A stretch of DNA of 64,000 nt from Clostridia bacterium (GTDB taxonomy: Bacteria > Bacillota > Clostridia > Oscillospirales > Acutalibacteraceae), in contig JAFXBF010000026.1 of NCBI GenBank assembly GCA_017516745.1, positions 1 through 64,000 of the forward strand, written 5' to 3'. The notes under the pieces were generated by a model. The model had not been told where the DNA came from. It saw only the letters and a program-made list of their open reading frames with translations, and made no database searches. Shown piece by piece: positions 1 to 14,067 of this stretch. Within the stretch, counting starts at the first letter, position 1; every line of letters starts with the position of its first letter. Both the position numbers and the translations under genes were made by a program.

Positions 1-45
1 ATTTCATAGAGTGTTTTGTATAGTCTGTTTTCATAAATTTAAAAT

Positions 46-567
46 TACCCTTCATTATGTTTGCACTGAGAAAGGGTAAATTGGGGTGATTTTTCAGAGA
101 AAATTTAAATATCCCTTCACTTATTTGAACAAGCACCCCCAAAATGGACACCCAAAATTCGCTGTTTTCGGAAAAGTTCAAAAAGTTTTTTAAAAATACC
201 CTCCACTATATATGCACTGGGAGAGGGCAATTTGTAGGGTGTTTTGCAAAAAAATTTAAAATAGCCTTCACTTATTCCCACCGAGAGAAGGCATTTGTAC
301 GCCCTAATTCCGAAATATTTACAAAGAATTCAAAAAGTCCTCTCATTATGTTTGCACTGGGAAGAGACAAATTGGGGTGATTTTTCGAAAAGAAATTTTC
401 AAAAAGTGTAATTGTGACGGCAAAAGTGCCGTCATAAATTCAAAAATCATTCTTTGTTCTTTGCAACTTGACGGCAGAATTGCCAACACTTTTTCAATGC
501 ACCTCACTTGTTTGGAATTAGAAGCGTCTTTTGTACACCCTGATTTCAAAAATACTTTCAGACAATA
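46..567. repeat. Degenerate tandem repeat array of alternating A and B units
   Basis: Two imperfect unit types alternate. A units begin near 46, 197 and 337: a CCCT arm, a core ending in GCACTG, a pairing AGGG arm, then a GGGGTGATTTTT-like tail. B units begin near 111, 262 and about 500, with a CTTCACTTATT-like core and a later TTTGTACnCCCTnATT segment. Composite A+B units are spaced about 150 and 140 bp apart. The third is split by about 100 bp carrying two hairpins: a perfect TGACGGCA/TGCCGTCA stem at 415-434 and a similar weaker one near 467-484. Small open frames here follow the repeat and lack start signals, so none is called. Base 1 to 613 otherwise holds no gene. Function is unknown. 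Confidence 0.65.
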
Positions 568-598
568 AAAAATGCCCTCCCGTTTTCACGGAAGAGCA
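563..598 (-). terminator. Rho-independent terminator of the four-gene operon
   Basis: On the minus strand a nine-pair stem (574-582 with 589-597, including two G-U pairs) closes a short loop and is followed by ATTTTTTATT. It lies 16 bases beyond the stop of the last gene of the operon. Confidence 0.75.
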
Positions 599-613
599 AG
601 TGTATAATTATAC

Positions 614-1213
614 TTATTTATATATTTTCCATAGGTCTTCAAAATATGCCTCTAATGCTGAATAACCTGAACTTGATTTTGAGTATCTTTGCATTGGACT
701 TAATCGTCCTGGAGTATCCGACGATTGAAAAGATAGATAGAGGCTATTGTCAAAAATAATTAGTCTAAACCTTAAAATTTCATTATGTTCTCGTAATTCT
801 ATGTTTAAATTAGTATTTGCAACCTCTTTAAAACATCCTATAGAATTTTCAATTCCCATTTTTAAATTGTTATTTTTTAATTCTTTACCCCTTTGTACAA
901 CATACGGGTTATTAGGAGATGATATTAAATATTTTTGTTTTGTTGGACCATCTAATAATAAATCATGCAATTCACCAGCGTCTCCAGGACTTGAAAAAGT
1001 ATCGCCTTTCATGGCAACAACTCTTAAGGTGTTTGAATTTCTAGCATCTCGTCTTATTGATTTTAAGGCTTTCTTTTGGTTTTTAAATTCCTTATCAAAA
1101 CTTTTTCTAAATTTAGGTGGTATAATTTTTCTGAAAAGACCCAAAACATACAAAATATATGATGCAAATAATGAGCTGGCTATTCCAAGTATGAATGATG
1201 TAAAATTGCTCAT
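614..1213 (-). CDS. Membrane-anchored protein with PLD/DUF5919-like domain (unknown function)
   Basis: This 199-residue protein has one clear hydrophobic segment (about residues 5-28), then a basic linker and a soluble alpha/beta domain (about 60-165). The domain reads like the phospholipase-D-like or DUF5919 folds found in effectors, with a YLISSPNN turn and a RLIIFDNSLYLSF strand pair. No HKD catalytic motif is seen, so enzymatic activity is doubtful. The start overlaps the kinase-like gene upstream by ATGA and has a GGAGG ribosome site, so the two are translationally coupled. It is the last gene of a four-gene leftward operon and the only one with a membrane segment, which would fit an effector role. 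That role is inference. Confidence 0.6.
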   Translation of the reverse strand: MSNFTSFILGIASSLFASYILYVLGLFRKIIPPKFRKSFDKEFKNQKKALKSIRRDARNSNTLRVVAMKGDTFSSPGDAGELHDLLLDGPTKQKYLISSPNNPYVVQRGKELKNNNLKMGIENSIGCFKEVANTNLNIELREHNEILRFRLIIFDNSLYLSFQSSDTPGRLSPMQRYSKSSSGYSALEAYFEDLWKIYK

Positions 1214-1929
1214 TTGTTTTCCTCCGTTTCCTTGCCTATGATTCTTTTTAACTGTTCGAAAGCAGTTTTGGTTGCATGAATAGTTGACATATTATTCGAA
1301 TATAAATTTAAAACAACGTAATCATATGTCAAAAAATCTGACGAGTACAATTCTTCTTGGTTTTTAATGCTTTCTAATCTTAATTTAAACTCTTCTTCTT
1401 CAAGCAATATACTGTCAATTAACTCGTTTATTTTTTCAATACAGGCAATAAAGCCTTCACCATTATCTTTATCTAACATTTTTTTGCTTGCATGTAATTG
1501 ATCATTTATATGAGATTGAACGGATCTTATCGAAGGAAACCCATGACGCTTCATATATATTTGTCTTAGCAATCTTTTATTTATATCTGAAACAATATAA
1601 ATAACTACTACTTGATTTGGAAAAATTGTTTTTAATTTTTCAATGGTTTGCTTATCGTTAGTTATTAATATTTGATGACTGCATTGTAATTTTTTATATA
1701 GATTTGATGAACTAAATCCATATCTATTTCCATATTTGGTATAAACAATATCACATTGCAAACTCGGATCGTTTATGTTTTTTACAGATGTTACATCGTC
1801 AACAGTATTAAAACGCTTACGTTCAGAATACTTTACAGCAGCACTACAGTATTTCTCTGTAACAAGTCTATCTAGCAAAGTAGATTTGCCAGCGCCTGAT
1901 GCTCCCGATAAAACAAACAGTTTATTCAT
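1210..1929 (-). CDS. Guanylate-kinase-like P-loop NTPase
   Basis: A 239-residue protein with a Walker A motif GASGAGKST at residues 9-17. A later segment near 60-73 (TKYGNRYGFSS) resembles the GNxYGT motif of the guanylate kinase and PhnN families, so a nucleotide or small-molecule kinase fold is likely. The C-terminal 80 residues are helical and not typical of housekeeping guanylate kinase. It sits third in the four-gene operon, 46 bases after the MBL gene, with an AAGGAG ribosome site, and overlaps the membrane-protein gene by four bases. Substrate unknown. In this AT-rich setting it is unlikely to be the cell's essential guanylate kinase. Confidence 0.7.
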   Translation of the reverse strand: MNKLFVLSGASGAGKSTLLDRLVTEKYCSAAVKYSERKRFNTVDDVTSVKNINDPSLQCDIVYTKYGNRYGFSSSNLYKKLQCSHQILITNDKQTIEKLKTIFPNQVVVIYIVSDINKRLLRQIYMKRHGFPSIRSVQSHINDQLHASKKMLDKDNGEGFIACIEKINELIDSILLEEEEFKLRLESIKNQEELYSSDFLTYDYVVLNLYSNNMSTIHATKTAFEQLKRIIGKETEENK

Positions 1930-1975
1930 ATTAAACTCCTTATAATACTAATAATTCTTGTGATAAAACACCTAC

Positions 1976-3112
1976 TTAATAATCGACAACAAAATGTATT
2001 GCACTTTTATTTTCTTCTGTAACAACTAAGGGATAGTGCTTGTTGAACATTAAGTCTCTAATTACATATGGATGTGGGTGATTATATTTGTTGTTTTGTC
2101 CGGCAAATATAATAAAATAGGCATCTAAACTAGAAAAGTTTTTATTATAATCTTTTTTTGAACCGTGATGTGGTATTTGAATACAACCAATATTATCCCA
2201 ATATTTAATATACCTTTCTTTTAATTCTATAAAATTAGTTGTTTTCCCTGCTTCATAATCACCTGTATACAAACATCCAACATTTTTACAACAACAGTCG
2301 CAACAAACACGAAAGCAAGGATAGCTATGTAGAAAACATTGAAATCCACTGCATCTTGAAGTTCCAGAATATAGAGTCATTGAGTTGGTGTTGAGTGAGC
2401 CTGGAAGCGATTTGTATACCGCTCTTATTTTGTTTTTTATTTCAGGTGTGCCTTTTATCCATAAATTTTCTACACTCAGAATTTCATCATCATTTATTCT
2501 CAAAACTTGCTGTAGTTTTTCTGTTAGTTGTTGTGTTCTATCTTTATATCGAAAATTAAAAGGTATGTACATCCAATGGTTAAAGATTCTTTCATCATCA
2601 CATATATAACAGGATAAGTTTTCTCCCGAGTTTACTGTAGAGAGTGTGTTTTGACCATTGTCATTAGCTATATAATCTTCAGGAGAAATCTGAATTAAAT
2701 GTGGTAGTTGTTTGTTGTATTTCGCTTTGTTTTCCAATGCTAAACTAGGATCTTTTATAAAAGAAACAGCAAAACTATCTTGGTTTACACCGTTAATAAG
2801 ATTGTTTAATACCAAAATAGCTTTTTCTATATTAGTCGTTAAAGGAAAAATAATATTCTTAACACAACAATACTCCAAAAGAAACTCTAAGCCATTAATA
2901 TGGTCATCATGTAAATGAGAAATAAAAACAGCATGGATTGGTTCATCTTCCATGAAAGTAGCTTTTATTTGTTTTTTGACGAGTTCAACATCTGTTGATG
3001 AACCACAATCATATACAATATTTATAGTTTCGTTAGAAAATGAAGCACTTTGGATTTGTTCACAACAGAATGCGCCTTGACCTACAGGTAAAAAACTTCT
3101 GATCATTTTCAT
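1976..3112 (-). CDS. Metallo-beta-lactamase-fold hydrolase with cysteine cluster
   Basis: A 378-residue protein of the ComEC/Rec2-like MBL branch. Metal ligands are visible: H66-L-H-D-D70-H71, an acidic TGDYE motif (D285), the PHHGS motif (H315, H316) and a late HPHPYV (345-350). Such enzymes hydrolyse phosphodiester or related bonds using two metals. Between residues 254 and 280 there are nine cysteines, just before the TGD motif, which is unusual for this fold and may form an extra metal site. It has no membrane segments, unlike ComEC. It is second in the operon, 20 bases after the gene at 4152-3133. Start at 3112 with GGTGGTG upstream; the ATG two codons later is also possible. Specific substrate unknown. 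Confidence 0.75.
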   Translation of the reverse strand: MKMIRSFLPVGQGAFCCEQIQSASFSNETINIVYDCGSSTDVELVKKQIKATFMEDEPIHAVFISHLHDDHINGLEFLLEYCCVKNIIFPLTTNIEKAILVLNNLINGVNQDSFAVSFIKDPSLALENKAKYNKQLPHLIQISPEDYIANDNGQNTLSTVNSGENLSCYICDDERIFNHWMYIPFNFRYKDRTQQLTEKLQQVLRINDDEILSVENLWIKGTPEIKNKIRAVYKSLPGSLNTNSMTLYSGTSRCSGFQCFLHSYPCFRVCCDCCCKNVGCLYTGDYEAGKTTNFIELKERYIKYWDNIGCIQIPHHGSKKDYNKNFSSLDAYFIIFAGQNNKYNHPHPYVIRDLMFNKHYPLVVTEENKSAIHFVVDY

Positions 3113-3132
3113 AAATTAACACCACCAATTGT

Positions 3133-4152
3133 TTAAAAATTTTTTTCACGAGAAATCCTTTTTATTTTTCCCAAATAACGATGTGCTTGAAGTTTCATTT
3201 TTGTTTCTTTAATATAACTGGGAATATAGTATAACTCTTTAAGTGAACTTAAATCAGAGTATGCTGTAGCTAAATCCAAAGCAATATTTTGATTATCATT
3301 AAATAAGTTTGTTAAACTTGTGTATGTTAGAAATGTTGAAGTAACGGTACCAACTGTCAAATAAAGTAATCTCGAAATATCATTAGCAATCCTTTTAGAA
3401 TTGTAAGAAATAAAATCTTCGCGACTATCACTACTAATAAACTTTTTTATTTCCTTAGCATATGAACGCCTGTAAGCAGTAAAATCCTTACTATTTCTTA
3501 ATTCAATTATTTTTTTATAAGGAATTTGTTCTAATCCAGCAGGAATAACAAAATCAATATATTTTTTAGCGATTTGAAAATCAATTGATTTATCATGCAT
3601 ATGGTTTATATCGCTGTTGATAAGTTGAGTATTGTAACGACTTGAATCAGTAAACATTTCATAATCATTATTTCTTGCGATCAAATCAGCTAAAAAGCTC
3701 ATATATACAAACGCTAAATCTTCTGAAATCATAATTCCGTTTTCAAATGGTGTTGATAATTTGTGTTCCTTACAATAATCTTCAAAAACCCTATTAAATT
3801 TCCCTTCATATAATTTGCACAAGTGATTATCTGGATTCGTCCATTTATTAATTATATTGGATCTATTATGTACAGTAAAAAAGCGGGAATAAAGATTTGG
3901 TCTTTTTAGATAATTATCAAATCTTTCACACGCATATGCTACGGCAACACACCCCTCATCAAAACTCGGCTTGTATGGGTGTATTAAATCTGTGTCTTCC
4001 ATTATTCTTATTGCCTTGTCACTCAGGTATTCCGATTTTTTTACAAACATATCTGGGATAATTGGTCGTAAATCGTCAAAATATAAAAGAGCAAATTTCA
4101 ACCATTTTTCATTTTTCACTTCAAATCCAGGGTAATAAATTATATTTTCCAT
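3133..4152 (-). CDS. Conserved hypothetical protein (DUF6236-like), first gene of operon
   Basis: A 339-residue soluble protein with no catalytic motif that can be assigned. The N terminus (YYPGFEVKNEKWLKFALLYF) resembles, from memory, the uncharacterised DUF6236 type; this is not verified. The middle is mostly helical and charged, and residues about 250-280 hold a more hydrophobic stretch that could be a buried helix. It has a GAGGTG ribosome site and a 20-base gap to the MBL gene, so it heads the operon. In context it may be the sensor or regulatory component, which is pure inference. Confidence 0.55.
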   Translation of the reverse strand: MENIIYYPGFEVKNEKWLKFALLYFDDLRPIIPDMFVKKSEYLSDKAIRIMEDTDLIHPYKPSFDEGCVAVAYACERFDNYLKRPNLYSRFFTVHNRSNIINKWTNPDNHLCKLYEGKFNRVFEDYCKEHKLSTPFENGIMISEDLAFVYMSFLADLIARNNDYEMFTDSSRYNTQLINSDINHMHDKSIDFQIAKKYIDFVIPAGLEQIPYKKIIELRNSKDFTAYRRSYAKEIKKFISSDSREDFISYNSKRIANDISRLLYLTVGTVTSTFLTYTSLTNLFNDNQNIALDLATAYSDLSSLKELYYIPSYIKETKMKLQAHRYLGKIKRISREKNF

Positions 4153-4331: not shown

Positions 4332-4375
4332 AACTCGCACCATAGCTGTAGTGCTATGATGCGAGTTGTTTTTTT
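4332..4375. terminator. Bidirectional terminator hairpin
   Basis: A 15-pair stem (4332-4346 with 4353-4367, one mismatch) is followed by GTTTTTTT on the plus strand and GTTTTGTCGTTTT on the minus strand. It most likely ends the leftward transporter gene at 4424. Bases 4153-4331 upstream of the four-gene operon are AT-rich; no strong promoter could be fixed there. Confidence 0.65.
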
Positions 4376-4423: not shown

Positions 4424-5851
4424 TTAAGATTGGTTATTGTTTGTTTCTCTTCTTTCGGCAAGATCCATAAGCATCCTTTCGTGTGTTGTTTTATCAAGAC
4501 TATAGAAAAAGAAAGGAAGGGCTGCAAGTATATAACTTATAGCTATCGGTAGAGAGAATATATTGAAAATTCCTTTTTGTACTTTGTTTTGTTGCGATAA
4601 TCTTACGCTTGAATTGCTTGTTTTATAACCGATTGCAGAAAGCAAAACGGAGCTTACAGATTGGGAAAGTGTTCCGCTCATTTTCTGCGTTACAATTTTC
4701 ATTGAAAAACTCAATCCCTCGTTTCGTTTTCCAGTTTTCCATTCGGTGTAGTCTGTTGCTTCAGCCATCATTTCGTTATAAACAACCGAAGCGGGAGTGC
4801 CCATCAATCCGTTAAAGAGTTGTGCTACCATAATTGCAGGAATCATAATAAACGGTGAATTGTAGAATACCGTACCGGCAAAGAAAACTGTAAACCAAAC
4901 AATACCTATACTTAAGTATGCCAATAGCATAATTTGTTTCTTTTGCAGGCGTTGTTTAAGTTTGTTTAAAAACGAATACGAGAATCCCCACGAAATTGCA
5001 GCAGGAATTGCAACTAAAATAGACAAACTTGCATATCCAAGAACATCTATGTAGTAATATGTCGCAACAGACCAACCTATTCCTTCAATAAATCGAGTCA
5101 AGTTGGAAAGAACCAACACCCGAAGCAACGGGTTTTTGAAAAACTCTGAAAAGCTCTCTTTAAAACTTGGTTTTTCTTCGGATTGGAGAACTCGCTCATT
5201 AACTTTATATGAAGCGATTATCATAAATACTCCGGTTAAAACGGCAGATAATATTCCGATTGACAGAAATGCTGTTTTGGTGGAAAAGGGACTGTTGTCA
5301 GTAGAAGTGTAATCAAGAAGCAACGGAACAGCTACACCCGGAATAGCTGCGAACACATTCATTGCAACACTAACATTCTTTGATATATTCGCTCTGTCTG
5401 ACGAGCTTGGAGATATTGCGGCGGACAAGCCCCAATACGAAACATCAACAAGCGTGTAACATGTTTCCCAAAGGAAATATGTAAGGAACATAAACAATAT
5501 CTTTGAAGGTGCGGTTGGCGATGTGTCTGTGATTATAAACGGTCCGCAAAACAACAAAACAGTAAGTAGTGCAAGAGGTAAGGCTCCGTTTCGTAAGTAT
5601 GGAAGCATCTTTCCGTACTTTGTGCGTGTTCTGTCAACGATAATTCCTGCCAACGGATTGTTAAACAAGTCCCATATACCCTCAAACAACAGCATTGCAC
5701 TAACAATTCGTAAGTCAACATTAAAAACATTGACATAGAAATACATCATATAGCTTGTTATAAGATTATACGCAAGACATTGTGTTCCGCCGGCAAAACT
5801 GTAAATGCCAATTTCGGTTTTGCTGACAAAAGAGTTTTGATAATTATTCAT
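4424..5851 (-). CDS. GPH-family (MFS) sugar:cation symporter
   Basis: A 475-residue integral membrane protein with about 12 hydrophobic segments. The N-terminal region carries the glycoside-pentoside-hexuronide family pattern: a DLFNNPLAGIIVDRTRTKYG loop after the second segment, and a second EATDYTEWKTGKRNEG motif in the C-terminal half. Such carriers import glycosides or pentoses with Na+ or H+. The gene has its own promoter (5882-5910) and lies downstream of a regulator gene on the same strand, with a shared promoter motif. Sugar specificity cannot be read from the sequence. Confidence 0.85.
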   Translation of the reverse strand: MNNYQNSFVSKTEIGIYSFAGGTQCLAYNLITSYMMYFYVNVFNVDLRIVSAMLLFEGIWDLFNNPLAGIIVDRTRTKYGKMLPYLRNGALPLALLTVLLFCGPFIITDTSPTAPSKILFMFLTYFLWETCYTLVDVSYWGLSAAISPSSSDRANISKNVSVAMNVFAAIPGVAVPLLLDYTSTDNSPFSTKTAFLSIGILSAVLTGVFMIIASYKVNERVLQSEEKPSFKESFSEFFKNPLLRVLVLSNLTRFIEGIGWSVATYYYIDVLGYASLSILVAIPAAISWGFSYSFLNKLKQRLQKKQIMLLAYLSIGIVWFTVFFAGTVFYNSPFIMIPAIMVAQLFNGLMGTPASVVYNEMMAEATDYTEWKTGKRNEGLSFSMKIVTQKMSGTLSQSVSSVLLSAIGYKTSNSSVRLSQQNKVQKGIFNIFSLPIAISYILAALPFFFYSLDKTTHERMLMDLAERRETNNNQS

Positions 5852-5881
5852 AAAAATACTCTCCCCATAGAATATGAGAAG

Positions 5882-5910
5882 AGTATAACATTATATTAGA
5901 TGATTGTCAA
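5882..5910 (-). promoter_or_regulatory. Sigma-A promoter of GPH transporter
   Basis: On the minus strand TTGACA (5905-5910), 17-base spacer, TATACT (5882-5887). The spacer carries a 17-base AT-rich motif (5885-5901) that recurs in the promoter of the adjacent regulator. Confidence 0.8.
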
Positions 5911-5927
5911 ATATAATTTAATTTACA

Positions 5928-6935
5928 TTAAACTTGTTTTGAAAACATGCGGTCTAATGCAGTTGTTAACCACTTTGCATGATTTGAATCAATAGTGTAA
6001 TAAATACGTTTCTGATTATCGTCACAGGTAGTCATTTTTGCAATTCCACAGGCAAGTAAAACATCTATGTGGTGCATTACCGTTGCAGGAGTCAAATTCA
6101 GTTTAGCAGCAAGTTCTCTGTTGTACCACGGTCTTTCACTCAAAAGCAAAAGAATTTCCGCTCTTGTTGCGTCACCTATAGCTTTGCAGGTTTCAACTAT
6201 TCGTTCTTTTTCATCAAGTCTTTCTTCTTCAGGTCTTATGTCGGCATTGAAAAGTCCATAATAATAGGTTTCGTTAATTATGAAAGCATTTGTGTATATG
6301 CTCAACTGGGGATAAACGTGCTTAATCGGCGCCTTCATATCTATATTGGATTTCTTGTAAAATTCATCCGAATTATTCCAACTTAAAGCAACAAAACCTT
6401 GTGCTTCTGTACGGACTTCATCCCACGCATTCTCCATTGCCGGAACATTATTGCGTATAATCTCATTAAACGCAAAAAGATATTCTTTGGGATTGTTATA
6501 AATTGCATTAAGCCCGTCACTTGAATCAAGATATTCTTCAAGCTCACAGCAAGCCGAGCCGTTTGACATTGAATCGGTTATGAAACGGTAGCTTTCTTTC
6601 ATTGCATTGCGAATTTCATCAACATCAGTTGAGTCAATATCGTACACCCAATCCCTGTTATTTAGATACATAACGGTCAGAACAAGATAATCAACAAGAG
6701 GGATTTCTTCAAAGAAAAATTCATCGTGTTCGCTGCTGACTCGATTTTTGTTAAAAGCATTAGTATATTTCTTGTGGAGTTGTTCGTGACGGGTCATAAA
6801 TTCACGAACATCCCATTCACGCTCGCCAATTAGGTTTATCATAAGTTCAACCATCTCGTCACGCTGTCTTGATATATACAGCAATGCTATGGTTTCACAA
6901 AGCCATTCGGGTTTGTTGTGGATTATGGGTTTCAT
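5928..6935 (-). CDS. ArsR-type winged-helix transcriptional regulator
   Basis: A 335-residue protein. The last 80 residues form an ArsR-like winged helix: RAEILLLLSERPWYNRELA, then LTPATVMHHIDVL as recognition helix, then a KRIYYTID wing. No metal-binding ELCVCDL motif is present. The first 250 residues are an unrecognised, acidic, mostly helical domain that probably senses a ligand. It lies just upstream of the GPH transporter on the same strand. Both promoters contain the same 17-base motif, so it probably controls itself and the transporter. Start chosen at 6935 from the AGGTG site. Confidence 0.75.
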   Translation of the reverse strand: MKPIIHNKPEWLCETIALLYISRQRDEMVELMINLIGEREWDVREFMTRHEQLHKKYTNAFNKNRVSSEHDEFFFEEIPLVDYLVLTVMYLNNRDWVYDIDSTDVDEIRNAMKESYRFITDSMSNGSACCELEEYLDSSDGLNAIYNNPKEYLFAFNEIIRNNVPAMENAWDEVRTEAQGFVALSWNNSDEFYKKSNIDMKAPIKHVYPQLSIYTNAFIINETYYYGLFNADIRPEEERLDEKERIVETCKAIGDATRAEILLLLSERPWYNRELAAKLNLTPATVMHHIDVLLACGIAKMTTCDDNQKRIYYTIDSNHAKWLTTALDRMFSKQV

Positions 6936-7051: not shown

Positions 7052-8140
7052 TTACTTTTGATACAATCTCATAATCTGCGGATAAAACTTTTTCTCATCT
7101 GCAAATGATGAAAGACCACCAAACTGACTTAATGTACCAATAAACGGTATATTTTCTAAAGCTGTACCTTTTAATTTCTCGGCTGTTGCTTCGGCAAATT
7201 TATCTGCAAATATAACTTTAATATCTCTACCGAAATAACACTCAATTTGATAGTCAACAATATCTGTCAAACCGCTTGAGTTATGCATATCGGCAACCAT
7301 AGCCTGAGCCTCAACAATTTTGTCCTCACGTTCGGTCAAACTGTTTGCTGAAAGTGCCACCTGAATGGTTTGTTTTATACTTATGTCAATATCAAGACGA
7401 TTGAAAGCTGTTCCAAACCACTTACTGTATGGGGCGTTGGTATCTTTGTAAAGAAAGCACAATCTCATCAGTCGTTCTGCAATTCTTGCACAGACAAGCT
7501 GTGAGCCTATTTCGTCACCACATTCACCGCAACGCTTTACAAAAGCCTGTTCCGATGCAACTATTTCCCAATTAGAAGCAATCATAATACAGTTTGACTT
7601 CGTGGGGATAATATTTAATCTTTGCAACTTTTTCTGAGCAGTTAAGACCGTCAACAAAGAACCTACCTGACACTAACGATAATAGTCTGTGTTCCGAAAA
7701 AACGAGCCATTGAATGGTCGAAATATTATCTGCATCTGCTGTGCCTAGTTGCTCGGTCAGATACTCATCAAAAGTGTGTATAAACACCAAAGGATTAACA
7801 TTGCCTTTGATTATGAATTCAGGGTGCTGAACACCGCAATCATTTGGGTCAGGTTCGGTAAAATTAACGCTGTAACCTTTATATGTATAGGGTAAATTTT
7901 CAGATAATGCGTTTATAATATCGCTTTTCTTTGAAATGTCAGCCTCGCTCAAAAACAAATAAAAGCGAGGTCCCACATATGGTCAGTAGAAACTGCATCA
8001 TCATAACCCAATACATCAGAGCCGTAGCCAATTAACCCGGCTGAATATTTTAATTCATGAAAGTTTTCTTCAATAATAGGTTTTGCGTATTCATTGAAAA
8101 AGCCTTCACATAAGTCCAGTCCTTTTATAAAATTTTTCAT
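7052..8140 (-). pseudogene. Frameshifted DUF4037-like nucleotidyltransferase-fold gene
   Basis: Three overlapping frames on the minus strand read as one protein of about 362 residues of the DUF4037 type. The first piece starts at 8140 with MKNFIKGLDLCEGFFNEY and holds the GYGSDVLGYDD segment, which fits the GS-x-D core of a nucleotidyltransferase fold. It breaks at 7972-7974, where one G appears lost from a G run (TGGGACC where TGGGGACC restores the frame). The second piece runs to about 7585, where one extra base shifts it into the third, which begins in frame at IASNWEIVASEQ and continues to 7052. Ribosome site GGAG precedes 8140. Two separate indels argue for decay, although sequencing error in the G run is possible. 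Confidence 0.75.
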
Positions 8141-8475: not shown

Positions 8476-8732
8476 CTGTTTTTTCATCCTAATGCAAAAG
8501 TGTTTTGAAAGCTTCTTTTCACAAGGGTAGATCCTTATACTATGTAGCAGATATTAAAAAAACGACACTTTATATTAATTTAAAAACTAATATCAGAGCT
8601 TTTTAAAATATAAAAACTAATTGCATAAGGATTTTAGTGCTGTTTTTCAGTTCTTTTTGTTAACAACCATTTGAATATAATTGTTTAAGATATTAAAGCG
8701 TTTAAAAAACTAATGATCGGAGGGTGTATGAT

Positions 8733-11150
8733 ATGTTTTTTGATATATATGGAATTTTAAAGGATGCATTTGAATTATTCATAAAAGGCAAAAAACATGT
8801 TTCAAAAAGAATATCTTTTATTAAAGCTTTTAAATATTCTTTGAAGGAGTGCAAAGAAAATGAAAACATAAGTCAAGAATTCTGTTCTTTGCTTGAAAGT
8901 TCAAAAAAGCCTACCATATCAGAACAAATTAAAAATGTAATAAACAAATCAAACGGTGCACGAGAATTAGAAGAAGATTTACGTCAAATTTTTTTAAACA
9001 CAAATATTCAAGTGAACAACCAAGAAGTGACTTGTTTCATTTCCTCGTTATTCTATTATCTTTTGCAAAGTGAAGAATATTCCCAAAAAATTATTAACAT
9101 GAGGACTGACATTGAAGTTTCCGAAACCCATCAAATGTTAAAAAAGCACTTGTCTCGAAGTGCAAACAGTTCTAAGCCAATATCAGCTCCTAGAATTTTA
9201 ACTCGTTATGCACCTAGAGCACAGGAAGAACTTGTTGGTAGAGAGAACGATCTTACTAACATTTTATCTATGCTTAATGACAAAAACAAAATTGTGATCG
9301 TAAATGGTATGGGTGGTATTGGAAAAACTGCTTTATGTCGAGCATTATTTCATAATAAAAAAATCACAAAACAATTGGCTTGGATAAATTACAAAGGCAA
9401 TTTGCTTGACGATTTGGTAGAGCAGTTCTATTACCCAATATTTGATAATGACACTTCATATAATGAGCGATTGGATAGAATTTTAATATTTTTAAGAGAA
9501 GAAATTAAGGAAACTGCGTTTTTGTTTATTGATAACGTAAACGCAACAATAGCTGAAGATCAAAATCTTCAAGTATTAGACAGCTTTCGATGTAAAATAA
9601 TATGTACATCAAGAATTAGAGGACTTGGATTATTTGACATATATGATCTTGATTTTTTAAACGAACATGAATGTATCAAAATGTTTGAACAATATTATCG
9701 AGTATTAGATTCTGAAGAAGAAAAGCAAGCTATAAAAGAAGTTGTTAGATTAGCAGGATTTCACACTTTGACTATTGAGGCAATAGCAAAGGTGTCTTTA
9801 GAGGATGGTTTGTTTCCTTTGGATATTTTAGATAAGTTAAAATCAGACGGTTTTAATTTATCAGAAGCTGTTGCCCAAATAACCCATAGAGATCAAATGG
9901 TTAGGGAAACAACAATTATTAATCATTTAAAATATGTATTTGACATTACAAATTTAAATGAGAATGAGTTAACAGTATTAAAATGTTTGGCAATATTTCC
10001 AAACATGTCAGTACCAGTTGATGCATATAAATGGTTTGAACTACCAAATTTAAGACTTTTTAATCATTTAACAAAATATGCTTGGTTAAAAAAGACGGAT
10101 AATGGATTTTTTATGCACCACGTAATAAAAGAGGTCATTAAATGTAGTTGTGAAATCTCAATAGAAGATATAAAAAAAGTAATTTTTTACTTTATAAAGG
10201 AATTAGAAAGTGATGAAAGCAAAAGTATAAAACATTACAATAGCCTATTGCCTTTTGCGGAATATGTGTTAAATCATTTTAATGATTCTCAAAATATTGA
10301 AATTGGTTTACTCTGTTGTTCTATTGGACAAGCCTACTATTATGTAGGAAAGTATTCTGAGGCAATGTCTATATTAAATAAAGCATTGCAAATATTATCC
10401 ATAGATTATACCGATAATGACAAAAAAATATTTTCTATTTATTGTGTTCAGGCTGCAATACAGAATAAGGTTGGTGAATTTGAAACATCGGCATATCTCT
10501 ACAAAAAAGCAATTATTGGTTGTGAATCATCTGACCATACCAATACAACAATAATGGCTGATATATATAGAGATACTGCTACAAATTATATTGATCTCAA
10601 TGATTATTCTTTGTCAATAAAGTATGGAAAAATGGCAATTAAGATTTATGAAGAAAAATCAGAAATCCTTGATTTGGCTTCTGCTTATAATAATTTAGGA
10701 TTAACGTATTATTATGTTAATAAACACGATGATGCTCTTCATTGTTATTTCAAAGCAAAGAAGCTTTATGAAAATAATATTCCTGACGATCATCAAGACT
10801 TTGCAACTCTTTATAATAATATTGCGCTAATAATGTGTGATAAAGGTGAATTTGATCAGGCTCTTGAGTACCATTTACGTGCGCTAAATATTCGAAATAA
10901 ATTTGAAAATGAAAACCATATAGATTTATCAGAAACCTATAATAATATCGCTACCGTATTTGGTCGTAAGGGGATTTATGAAAAGGCAATAGAGTATCAA
11001 ATATTAGATATCTCAATTTTGCAAAAAATCAATAAGAATCATCCATATCTAAAACAATCCTATCAGAAAATGCAAGAGTATTATGAGGCAATCGGTGATA
11101 TGGAAAAATCCAATTTTTATCGTGAAAAATCTAATATGATTGAGATATAA
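8733..11150 (+). CDS. STAND (NB-ARC type) NTPase with TPR repeats
   Basis: An 805-residue regulator or defence protein. Residues 1-150 are an unrecognised helical N-terminal domain. An NTPase follows: EELVGREN box near 166, Walker A GMGGIGKT near 192-199, Walker B AFLFIDNVN near 262, and a KIICTSR sensor near 288. A helical and winged-helix-like region runs to about 490. Residues about 505-800 hold seven TPR units of 40-44 residues of kinesin-light-chain style (for example AYNNLGLTYYYVNKHDDALH). In such proteins the repeats sense a ligand and the NTPase oligomerises to activate the N-terminal domain. The ATG at 8733 is preferred over the GTG at 8724 because CGGAGGG lies eight bases before it. 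A TATAAT at 8676-8681 is the likely -10 box. AT-rich, island-like. Avs-like antiviral function is possible but unproven. Confidence 0.85.
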   Translation: MFFDIYGILKDAFELFIKGKKHVSKRISFIKAFKYSLKECKENENISQEFCSLLESSKKPTISEQIKNVINKSNGARELEEDLRQIFLNTNIQVNNQEVTCFISSLFYYLLQSEEYSQKIINMRTDIEVSETHQMLKKHLSRSANSSKPISAPRILTRYAPRAQEELVGRENDLTNILSMLNDKNKIVIVNGMGGIGKTALCRALFHNKKITKQLAWINYKGNLLDDLVEQFYYPIFDNDTSYNERLDRILIFLREEIKETAFLFIDNVNATIAEDQNLQVLDSFRCKIICTSRIRGLGLFDIYDLDFLNEHECIKMFEQYYRVLDSEEEKQAIKEVVRLAGFHTLTIEAIAKVSLEDGLFPLDILDKLKSDGFNLSEAVAQITHRDQMVRETTIINHLKYVFDITNLNENELTVLKCLAIFPNMSVPVDAYKWFELPNLRLFNHLTKYAWLKKTDNGFFMHHVIKEVIKCSCEISIEDIKKVIFYFIKELESDESKSIKHYNSLLPFAEYVLNHFNDSQNIEIGLLCCSIGQAYYYVGKYSEAMSILNKALQILSIDYTDNDKKIFSIYCVQAAIQNKVGEFETSAYLYKKAIIGCESSDHTNTTIMADIYRDTATNYIDLNDYSLSIKYGKMAIKIYEEKSEILDLASAYNNLGLTYYYVNKHDDALHCYFKAKKLYENNIPDDHQDFATLYNNIALIMCDKGEFDQALEYHLRALNIRNKFENENHIDLSETYNNIATVFGRKGIYEKAIEYQILDISILQKINKNHPYLKQSYQKMQEYYEAIGDMEKSNFYREKSNMIEI

Positions 11151-11254: not shown

Positions 11255-12589
11255 TTAAAATTTATATGTATTGTTTTTTATGTTAGGAACCGCAATTTTG
11301 CCTAGTAAGTATGATTTCATCAAATTTTTATCTGCTCTAATATTTGAGATGCCCATAGATTCCAATGTAGAACAACCATCTTCTTTCGAAACAAACCAAA
11401 CTTCATCTTTTCTTAATAGATTAAAATCTAAAAGAATAGATTCATGAGTAGTGACTATGAGCTGACAATTAGTTTTTTTGGCTTTTTCTAAAAAAGCAGA
11501 TATAAAATTAAAAGTTAAAAGCGGATGTAAACATCTGTCGATTTCATCAACAACATAAACAATGTCATCATCTTCTTGGAAAAGTATTTCTAAAAGTTTG
11601 AAAATCTTTTTAGTACCATCTGATTCTTCAGACATATAAAATGGTGTTTTTGTTCCTTCGTGATAAAACTGAATAGTTTCAAAACTAATATGTTCATCAA
11701 CGATTTTAGCAATGTAAAAATCATCTGCTAAACCAAACATAACGCAATTATTCTCTTCATCTTCTATCAAATCTTTTTCTATTCTAGATACTAAATCCTC
11801 GAAAATTTCTTTAGGTAACTTTAGTGCAATTTGTTCCTTAGGACATTCAAAAAAATTATAATTTGATATTGATAAATCAAAATCTTTAAAGAACTTTAAA
11901 ATACTATCCATATTTTTTTCGGACATAAAATATGCATAGTCTGAAATAATACTATCTGGTTTTTTAACTTTTAAATTGATTTCAAACCACCAAAACACTT
12001 CTTTTAAAATGATAGCTTCACTATGTTCGGAAAACAAATTGTTATAAGTGCTAACAGCTTTTAAGAAAAGTATACCGTTGTTTGAGGATATACTATCCGA
12101 AATAATATTTAATCGATTTCTCAAATCGTTATTTCTAAAGTATTCGCCTAAAATAAATTCGTTATTTTTTCTTTCGTGCTTGAATACTAATTTATCTGTT
12201 CTGGAAGTGTTTAAATATAACCATTCTGCAACAACTTCATTTTTTGACAGCAAAATCTCAAAACCATATGTATATATTTTTTGATCTATAGAAATCTTGT
12301 ATTCAAAGCTTGATGTCGACTCTTTGCAATTTGGATTTATTTTATTATATTTTTGAATAGTTGCTCTGTCGTTTCCTCTAATTATGTAGTCTCTGGAAAA
12401 TGAAATAGCTTTAACAAAATTTGATTTACCCGAGCCATTAGCTCCAAACAGCGATGAAAATTTTAGAATCTTATTACTTCCGTTTTGATAGAGACGCTCA
12501 TTGAAATTCCTACCTTTTCCGGCAACCAAGCTAAAAACTTCCTCTTTTTCAAAGGATAAGAAATTTCTAACTTTGAAATCAATTAACAT
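11255..12589 (-). CDS. AAA15-family ATPase (AbiLii/RloA-like)
   Basis: A 444-residue SMC/ABC-like ATPase. It starts MLIDFKVRNFLSF, the typical opening of the COG1106 family. Walker A GANGSGKS is at residues 49-56, an ABC-like signature region SEESDGTKK in the C-terminal third, then Walker B IVYVVDEIDRCLHP and the LIVTTHES switch. Relatives act in abortive infection or with an RloB-type nuclease encoded next to them. Here no RloB partner is adjacent, so it is either an orphan or works with something else. The in-frame ATG at 12589 is chosen because GAGGAG lies eight bases before it; the longer frame from 12622 begins at the -10 box. Confidence 0.8.
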   Translation of the reverse strand: MLIDFKVRNFLSFEKEEVFSLVAGKGRNFNERLYQNGSNKILKFSSLFGANGSGKSNFVKAISFSRDYIIRGNDRATIQKYNKINPNCKESTSSFEYKISIDQKIYTYGFEILLSKNEVVAEWLYLNTSRTDKLVFKHERKNNEFILGEYFRNNDLRNRLNIISDSISSNNGILFLKAVSTYNNLFSEHSEAIILKEVFWWFEINLKVKKPDSIISDYAYFMSEKNMDSILKFFKDFDLSISNYNFFECPKEQIALKLPKEIFEDLVSRIEKDLIEDEENNCVMFGLADDFYIAKIVDEHISFETIQFYHEGTKTPFYMSEESDGTKKIFKLLEILFQEDDDIVYVVDEIDRCLHPLLTFNFISAFLEKAKKTNCQLIVTTHESILLDFNLLRKDEVWFVSKEDGCSTLESMGISNIRADKNLMKSYLLGKIAVPNIKNNTYKF

Positions 12590-12613
12590 AAACATCGCTC
12601 CTCTCGTATCTGT

Positions 12614-12641
12614 ATTATACACGATTCTCGAAAAAAATCAA
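12614..12641 (-). promoter_or_regulatory. Promoter of AAA15 ATPase
   Basis: On the minus strand TTGATT (12636-12641), 16-base spacer, TATAAT (12614-12619). It lies close upstream of the chosen start at 12589. Confidence 0.7.
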
Positions 12642-12887: not shown

Positions 12888-13100
12888 GTGGCTAAGCAAA
12901 GAGTCACTGTTACTCAGGAAAGCAGCACCGGTAGGAACACGCGATTTCACGACAATATAACCGGCACAGATATGACACGAGCAGGATTTGTACGACAAAT
13001 CAAAAACGGTTCATATGATGATTACTATGTGCGAAATATAAATGGTGTTCCGACGCCTTGTAGCAAACCTGATAGTAGCAAAAGCAACAATCTTGAGTGA
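12888..13100 (+). CDS. Small DUF3892-like protein
   Basis: A 70-residue protein starting at GTG 12888, seven bases after GGAGG (12876-12880). The ATG 30 bases upstream has no ribosome site. It opens AKQRVTVTQESSTGRNTRFH and has a GFVRQIKNG...YYVRNINGV core, which resembles the DUF3892 type of small proteins common on mobile elements of Clostridia; family assignment is from memory. Function unknown. It is followed by two hairpins and then by the 300-residue gene, so the two probably share the strong promoter at 12701. Confidence 0.65.
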   Translation: MAKQRVTVTQESSTGRNTRFHDNITGTDMTRAGFVRQIKNGSYDDYYVRNINGVPTPCSKPDSSKSNNLE

Positions 13101-13150
13101 TACAATCACTCACACCGCCCTCCGAGAAATCGGAGGGTATTATTTTTTGA
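13095..13150 (+). terminator. Attenuator-like hairpins between the two genes
   Basis: A seven-pair hairpin at 13095-13111 overlaps the stop codon of the small gene. A second, perfect eight-pair hairpin (13118-13125 with 13130-13137, GAAA loop) is followed by TATTATTTTTTGA. The second looks like a true intrinsic terminator 15-25 bases before the ribosome site of the next gene, so expression of that gene would need read-through. Confidence 0.7.
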
Positions 13151-13164
13151 AAGGACGATTATTT

Positions 13165-14067
13165 ATGACAAAAAGAATTTCAAACCATTTACTATCACAA
13201 AACAAGGTTGAACACTGTAATATTGATTTTGTGAATACTGCCATCTCTAGAGACGAACAACTTTTTATTGACCCTGTTTTAATCGAAGTAGGGACAACTT
13301 CTTTTTGCGATGTTGCAAAAAGAAAAACTGCTGATTTTTTCAGTCAGTTACATACAGCATATTATGTAGCTAACAATGTGGAACATAAAAAACATTTGTT
13401 AAAACACGCCAGAGAAATAAACGATACTCACCTTGGTTATGCGAAAAAACACGGTAAAGGCAATACAGAAGAAGGTTTATATGAGATATTCAAGGGGATT
13501 GATGATTATATAACTTCTATAAAAATTAATAGAATGTTTGAACTGGTGTTATATGTACCTGAATTTGCTGAAGACGGAATGTCAGATTTGCTTACCAACA
13601 TTTTGTATAAAGAATTAAGTGAATTTACTGTTCAGCAATGCCAAAAGTATAATATTGAAACCCAAATATGTCCCAAAGAAAGGTTTTATTGGAATAGTCA
13701 AACACATACTTGGATAAAATACACAGGACAATCTCTTGTTATAGATGGGAATATACATCTATTGGTTCCCAAGGAAATCGTACAGACTCACTATCGATTT
13801 ACAACAGACAACTTTTTGAGAAGTGTTATCGTTGAAAACATTTGTGAAGCTGAGGCCAGTTACGATAAAAACGGAAAAAAGAGCAGACCTCAAAAAGATA
13901 AAGTTAGAGAGAATATTTTGAAACAAAACGGAACTATTTTTGATACAGTTCATAAATTTGCCGAGGGTAATAACGATTTATTGAAGCAATATCAAAAGAT
14001 TGTCGATGAGAAGTATAGAGCTTTAACTCTAAGCGATGAGGAACTTGATATGCGTATATATAAATGA
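13165..14067 (+). CDS. Conserved hypothetical protein of mobile regions
   Basis: A 300-residue soluble protein of unknown function. The start at 13165 follows GAAAGGACGATTATTT; the longer frame upstream overlaps the small gene and the terminator. Features include an LFIDPVLIEVG segment near residue 35, a GKGNTEEGLYEIFKG glycine-rich turn near 92, an AEDGMSDLLTNILYKEL helix near 134, and an ERFYWN motif near 172. These recur in a family met on phage-like and integrative elements, but no catalytic function can be named. AT-rich like the STAND and AAA genes. Its partner is the small gene upstream. Confidence 0.65.
   Translation: MTKRISNHLLSQNKVEHCNIDFVNTAISRDEQLFIDPVLIEVGTTSFCDVAKRKTADFFSQLHTAYYVANNVEHKKHLLKHAREINDTHLGYAKKHGKGNTEEGLYEIFKGIDDYITSIKINRMFELVLYVPEFAEDGMSDLLTNILYKELSEFTVQQCQKYNIETQICPKERFYWNSQTHTWIKYTGQSLVIDGNIHLLVPKEIVQTHYRFTTDNFLRSVIVENICEAEASYDKNGKKSRPQKDKVRENILKQNGTIFDTVHKFAEGNNDLLKQYQKIVDEKYRALTLSDEELDMRIYK

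Follow-up and report, generated by a model that had tools for sequence, protein, structure and literature searches.

In the 64,000-nt stretch of DNA analysed here, called the window (Clostridia bacterium, GenBank assembly GCA_017516745.1, contig JAFXBF010000026.1, positions 1 to 64,000), a four-gene operon is present, whose genes were designated A to D beginning with the most upstream one. To judge from its sequence, the product of B is a ComEC-type metallo-beta-lactamase (MBL) fold hydrolase, probably a DNase. We tentatively propose, with a probability of about 0.4, that the operon is a horizontally acquired anti-phage module of the abortive type, in which B would be a gated DNase, A its partner, and C and D accessories. 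This proposal was favoured because B resembles ComEC, because members of its family are found near defence genes, and because related MBL proteins are described as gated DNases (PMC12799240). It was also favoured because of the extra length of B between P90 and D285, the recurrence of the A-B pair, and the location in an AT-rich island with genes for a STAND protein containing tetratricopeptide repeats (TPRs) and an AbiLi-like ATPase.

The operon and gene B

The features of the operon region are the following (aa, amino acids; TM, transmembrane).

573-598, minus strand: hairpin resembling an intrinsic terminator after D, 11-pair stem followed by a T-run
614-1213, minus strand: gene D, orphan of 199 aa with one N-terminal TM segment, recognized as a hydropathy peak
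1133-1201, minus strand: TM segment of D, residues 5-27, Kyte-Doolittle values above 1.6 in 19-residue windows starting at residues 5-9
1210-1929, minus strand: gene C, divergent guanylate-kinase-like P-loop protein of 239 aa, match to TIGR03263 below cut-off
1882-1905, minus strand: Walker A motif GASGAGKS of C, aligned with five guanylate kinases of relatives
1976-3112, minus strand: gene B, predicted stand-alone ComEC-type MBL-fold hydrolase of 378 aa, with Lactamase_B and ComEC profile matches and motifs
2276-2362, minus strand: hypervariable Cys-rich loop of B, residues 251-279, 8 Cys in 29 residues, directly before C280 and the catalytic-type D285
2900-2920, minus strand: metal-site motif S65-H-L-H-D-D-H71 of B, with S65, H66, D70 and H71 invariant in 75 aligned sequences
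3133-4152, minus strand: gene A, divergent DUF6236-type protein of 339 aa, weak PF19749 match and N-terminal motif
4332-4367, minus strand: terminator-like hairpin between the preceding MFS-like gene and gene A, 15-pair stem

A sequence-only reading of this DNA had described four tightly spaced leftward genes ending at one terminator in an AT-rich stretch, and in these respects it was accurate. The coordinates of the open reading frames (ORFs) agree exactly: A and B are separated by 20 bases, B and C by 46 bases, and C and D overlap by 4 bases. All four starts are preceded by a purine-rich, Shine-Dalgarno-like stretch (GAGGTG, GGTGG, AAGGAG, and GGAGG), and a hairpin is located directly after the last gene, at 598-573. 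Scanning 4.5 kb for such hairpins yielded four, two of them overlapping, compared to 1.9 +/- 1.5 expected from shuffled sequences. The GC content is 30-31% over positions 1-4000 versus 43-46% over 16-46 kb (40-46% from 16 kb onward). The four-gene operon is therefore regarded as real.

The putative metallohydrolase assigned to B by the sequence-only reading was recovered as a match to the Pfam Lactamase_B core (2.3e-9). With a profile built from B and three plasmid relatives, a ComEC-type structure was matched best (2.9e-8), followed by RNase Z and Apyc1 (E 0.0011 for the latter), and alignment of the B family with one ComEC MBL domain (L011) by hhalign gave a probability of 98.1 over residues 6-99. 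Weaker MBL matches on plasmids came from Rahnella and Tistrella, while a phage search and a viral-contig scan with B gave no result.

A scan of genome contigs revealed 133 relatives of B, from which 79 loci were kept; together with three plasmid loci, 82 were available for comparison and are given as L numbers. The alignment and tree include 75 of the 83 sequences (window plus 82 loci), the remaining eight having been dropped for missing GQG letters or a length below 300 aa. DCG, S65, H66, D70, and H71 are identical in all 75 sequences, and G284, D285, and H315-H316-G317 are kept in 74. GQG is also found in 75 of 75, which partly reflects selection, because the rows were chosen for holding it.

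The spacing between P90 and D285 varies from 159 to 262 residues in the family (median 198) and is 71 residues in the one ComEC compared, relative to which B contains about 125 extra residues. Part of this length is the Cys-rich loop, which is hypervariable in the family (34.6 +/- 11.8 residues). In the 75 loops 179 Cys residues were counted, versus 43 +/- 6 when the Cys residues of each protein, minus the two conserved ones, were dealt randomly with kinship ignored; 33 of the 75 loops contain three or more. Judged by length and composition, these extra residues may gate the enzyme.

Gene A and the surroundings of the B family

Gene A matches PF19749 (DUF6236) with an E-value of 0.0019 and 17.9 bits, below the gathering cut-off of 26.2, and its N-terminal motif is also present in an annotated DUF6236 protein (L034) and other relatives. 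PDB searches and a viral-contig scan with A gave no result, and no paper mentioning 'DUF6236' was found in the literature searched. The AlphaFold model of A is of low confidence (mean predicted local distance difference test value 57.9, predicted template modelling score 0.56) and was not interpreted; ten-residue means are 48-85 over residues 1-180 and lower afterwards, except for 70-81 around residues 211-230.

Within the 82 MBL loci, a homologue of A was detected in L041 only. It is 42% identical and directly precedes the MBL gene in the same orientation, with a gap of 72-99 bases according to the start codon chosen. Thus, two of three close A genes precede an MBL gene. In the tree, the B protein of L041 is joined with that of the kinase-linked locus L043 at full support, and a clade of the window and L041 B proteins was rejected (approximately unbiased test, p 7e-6, 20 rows), this two-row clade having been chosen for testing after the quick tree had been seen. 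Since the two B proteins are not sisters, their pairing with A does not simply reflect joint descent with a single B lineage. A and B thus seem to have come together anew instead of descending as a unit; this speaks for a working link between them, although on two cases only. A new partnership of a known kind of effector is plausible.

Gene A was found in four of 391 genomes of the class, namely the host, one other genome with a strong match (G358), and two distant relatives; among 147 genomes of the order, the host and one distant match were obtained. Serine recombinase genes adjoin A relatives in L134 of G358 (by Pfam) and in L136 and L153 (by reading). A PIN-like gene noticed by eye beside the A relative in L136 had no Pfam match and was not used.

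Regarding the surroundings of the MBL genes, at least 18 of the 82 loci contain defence-type genes within 3 kb, the remaining loci not all being classified. Classes were assigned from sequence clusters read by eye and from Pfam counts in which individual members are not named; ORFs were defined by a simple longest-ORF script, and many loci are cut by contig ends. Type I restriction genes were found in nine loci (L067, L068, L076, L077, L087, L090, L093, L096, and L103), RloB/AbiL ATPase genes in L050 and L104 with a cut RloB end read in L037, Ser/Thr kinases in L043, L094, and L097, HipA in L052 and L063, NACHT in L031, and an OLD/TOPRIM and UvrD pair about 2 kb from the MBL gene in L033. When 21 labelled rows of the 75-row quick tree were considered, their eight classes required 11 changes (minimum 7). 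Many MBL genes of the family adjoin ordinary genes. No ORF located up to 5 kb from B carries a trypsin- or caspase-like motif pair, either in the window or at the 82 loci, as judged by a crude pattern of our own applied without a positive control.

Two further arrangements were observed among these loci. A small membrane protein family is common to L040 (7480-7989), L042 (10073-10612), and L077 (160 aa), where it is accompanied by further MBL-fold genes. In L102 (2395-3755), the genes after the MBL gene are one that scores just below the cut-off for Prok-JAB (PF14464, 24.1 bits, cut-off 25) and a small partner, an arrangement that recalls ubiquitin-like bacterial systems.

Genes C and D and the AT-rich island

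The guanylate-kinase-like NTPase seen in C by the sequence-only reading is in agreement with the Walker A motif, the retained YG..YG motif of guanylate kinases, and a match to TIGR03263 of 6.6e-9, with 35.6 bits at a curated cut-off of 160.45. Residues are changed between the P-loop and the YG motif and after it, and an extra C-terminal part is present. A canonical gmk of the host is located on another contig (231.8 bits). By its sequence, C is an extra, degenerate guanylate kinase relative. Outside the host, 21 matches to C were obtained at class level, the neighbours being inspected for a minority of them; six matches in relatives were read and look like true guanylate kinases. The nearest odd relative is a 455-aa protein (L135, 6295-7662) that reads as two tandem guanylate-kinase-like domains, and in that stretch phmmer detected no A, B, or D. 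In the PDB, C matched a 'core-binding domain' protein, which was set aside as a likely chance helical match, and a viral-contig scan with C gave no result.

D is a small TM protein as suggested before, whereas the PLD/DUF5919-like domain also ascribed to it found no profile match in Pfam, NCBIfam, PADLOC, PHROGs, or PDB. No family in these databases scored over cut-off; the TM region came nearest, with a match to a type I toxin model of NCBIfam (E 0.0032, 17.9 of 60 bits). Plasmid, viral-contig, and genome searches revealed no convincing relative, and a phage search gave E 3 or worse. In the 147 genomes of the order, D was found in the host alone at E 0.01; a further 12 genome matches (E 0.015-0.1) were attributed to chance.

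If the four genes formed a conserved set, they should recur together, and this was not seen; A and B alone recur, once (L041). Within the sequence available for the 82 MBL loci, no predicted gene was matched by C or D. No class-level genome other than the host carried two of A, C, and D on one contig (391 genomes for A, 391 for C, and 291 for D), and no plasmid record was matched by two of the four genes. Literature searches, judged mostly from listings, revealed no paper on the gene set.

Among the neighbouring genes, the STAND label given by the sequence-only reading is appropriate for the TPR protein at 8724-11150 (NB-ARC 1.5e-7, no PADLOC match), but the ATPase at 11255-12622, named AAA15 there, is better described as AAA_21/AbiLi-like (PADLOC AbiLi 5e-70). 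For the transposon genes also mentioned, a single ORF was checked (13042-14067), which showed no Pfam family at E 1e-4. The closest MBL relative of B, in L050, directly follows an AbiLi-type ATPase and RloB. A DUF4037-type gene at 7052-8140, its likeness judged by eye, is split over three ORFs; an intact relative of 362 aa (PF13228, 1.3e-26) is located in L042 at 5687-6775, 1.2 kb from the MBL gene, and parts of the island may thus recur there. The window is the start of a 67-kb contig, and therefore only a 0.6-kb stretch is seen beyond gene D. It contains, at 38-416, three copies of an 88-base repeat, the second and third being 75% and 67% like the first.

Possible functions and comparison with known systems

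In the proposed mechanism, B would be the effector, a ComEC-type MBL DNase held inactive by the roughly 125 extra residues before the second metal-site motif, the Cys-rich loop included. A could act as sensor or release factor: upon detection of infection by A, B would be unlocked and DNA degraded. C and D would be accessories of this one lineage, with a possible role for C in sensing or modifying a nucleotide and for D in keeping the complex at the membrane.

A number of results weigh against this proposal. The A-B pairing was seen in two places only, and 81 of the 82 B loci lack A as far as the stretches reach. The close A homologue in G358 adjoins a recombinase gene, the 12 kb read around it contain no MBL gene, and this genome matches the B profile only weakly and partially, in longer ORFs. 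In the searches made, no other locus combined C or D with A or B. PADLOC matched neither A nor D, and B partially only (LmuA, PDC-M48B, RTasMBL, and Avs1a models). No same-strand ORF was found within 150 bp for 21 of the 82 MBL genes, a low estimate, as small doubtful ORFs were counted as neighbours. Finally, the excess of defence genes near the MBL genes is slight and was determined with a within-locus control only: PADLOC HsdR models matched six of 132 adjacent genes, and the commonest family two of 89 genes more than 5 kb away. Of the 140 adjacent genes, the eight that were not scanned are among the largest. The leaning towards defence in the sequence-only reading is supported by the defence-type genes near part of the MBL family, and its overall interpretation is partly supported.

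The most credible of the other explanations, itself unlikely, is that unrelated cargo genes share a transcript, with A and B as the sole functional pair or with none. It would account for C and D not being found with A or B elsewhere and for A occurring in G358 without a full-length B-family gene, but is at odds with the tight spacing, the 4-base overlap, the flanking hairpins, and the A-B order that recurs once. Next comes a toxin-antitoxin or addiction unit of a mobile element, also improbable, in which B (or D) would be toxic and A would neutralise it, making a phage role needless. The recombinases adjoining A relatives, the AT-rich island, the HipA-type genes beside two B loci, and the weak type I toxin likeness of D point in this direction. 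However, A is large for this role and is found without B (L134), and four genes are unusual for a toxin-antitoxin unit.

Nucleotide signalling, which we place behind these two as doubtful, would have C making or phosphorylating a signal, B as an Apyc1-type enzyme destroying it, D as membrane effector, and A sensing the trigger. Apyc1 among the profile matches of B, the P-loop and YG..YG motif kept in C, and the single TM segment of D are consistent with it. On the other hand, the ComEC matches of B are stronger, C and D matched nothing in other B loci, and none of the four genes matched a cyclase family. Although B is related to ComEC and C to Gmk, it is very improbable that the operon serves a housekeeping function in DNA uptake or nucleotide metabolism, considering the canonical gmk of the host, the near confinement of A and D to the host within the order, and the AT-rich island.

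If the anti-phage proposal is true, a DNase module known from immunity that depends on protease activation also operates with very different triggers, and DUF6236, a family of unknown function, gains a testable role. The Cys-rich loop of B is a direct biochemical handle. A more far-reaching version appears still less likely than the signalling explanation: DUF6236-type proteins might be a new class of partner that switches a ComEC-type pro-DNase without proteolysis, via a hypervariable, Cys-rich lid next to the active site that would bind metal or respond to redox state, and the lid-bearing DNase might be an interchangeable effector of type I restriction, RloB/AbiL, kinase, and NACHT loci.

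Concerning known proteins, A has the N-terminal motif and the length of about 340 aa of DUF6236 proteins but scores below the cut-off, and C resembles guanylate kinases and PhnN in its P-loop and YG..YG motif but scores far below their cut-offs. B shares the fold of the ComEC/Rec2 MBL domain, its GQG, SHxxxDH, GD, and HHG motifs, and a profile match, but has no channel domain and is longer between P90 and D285. According to Tuck et al. (PMC12799240), ComEC-like MBL nucleases are common to the Avs, Hachiman, Lamassu, and DRT systems, where their partners are trypsin-like, and in canu they are found together with caspases. The active site is blocked by insertions until these are cleaved by the partner protease in Hachiman and Avs, and by the same reasoning in canu; MBL DNases gated in this way are protease-activated pro-nucleases. 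The gated enzymes (HamM, Avs1a, Lamassu, DRT relatives, and CanC) resemble B in being ComEC-like MBL proteins specified by a separate gene, in their extra length compared to ComEC, and in being joined to unrelated defence genes across genomes. Direct similarity of B to the NCBIfam Avs1a model is weak (29 bits, cut-off 420). The operon differs from these systems in that no protease family in Pfam or NCBIfam was matched by A, C, or D, the partner being of the DUF6236 type instead, and in that the extra loop of B is Cys-rich and hypervariable.

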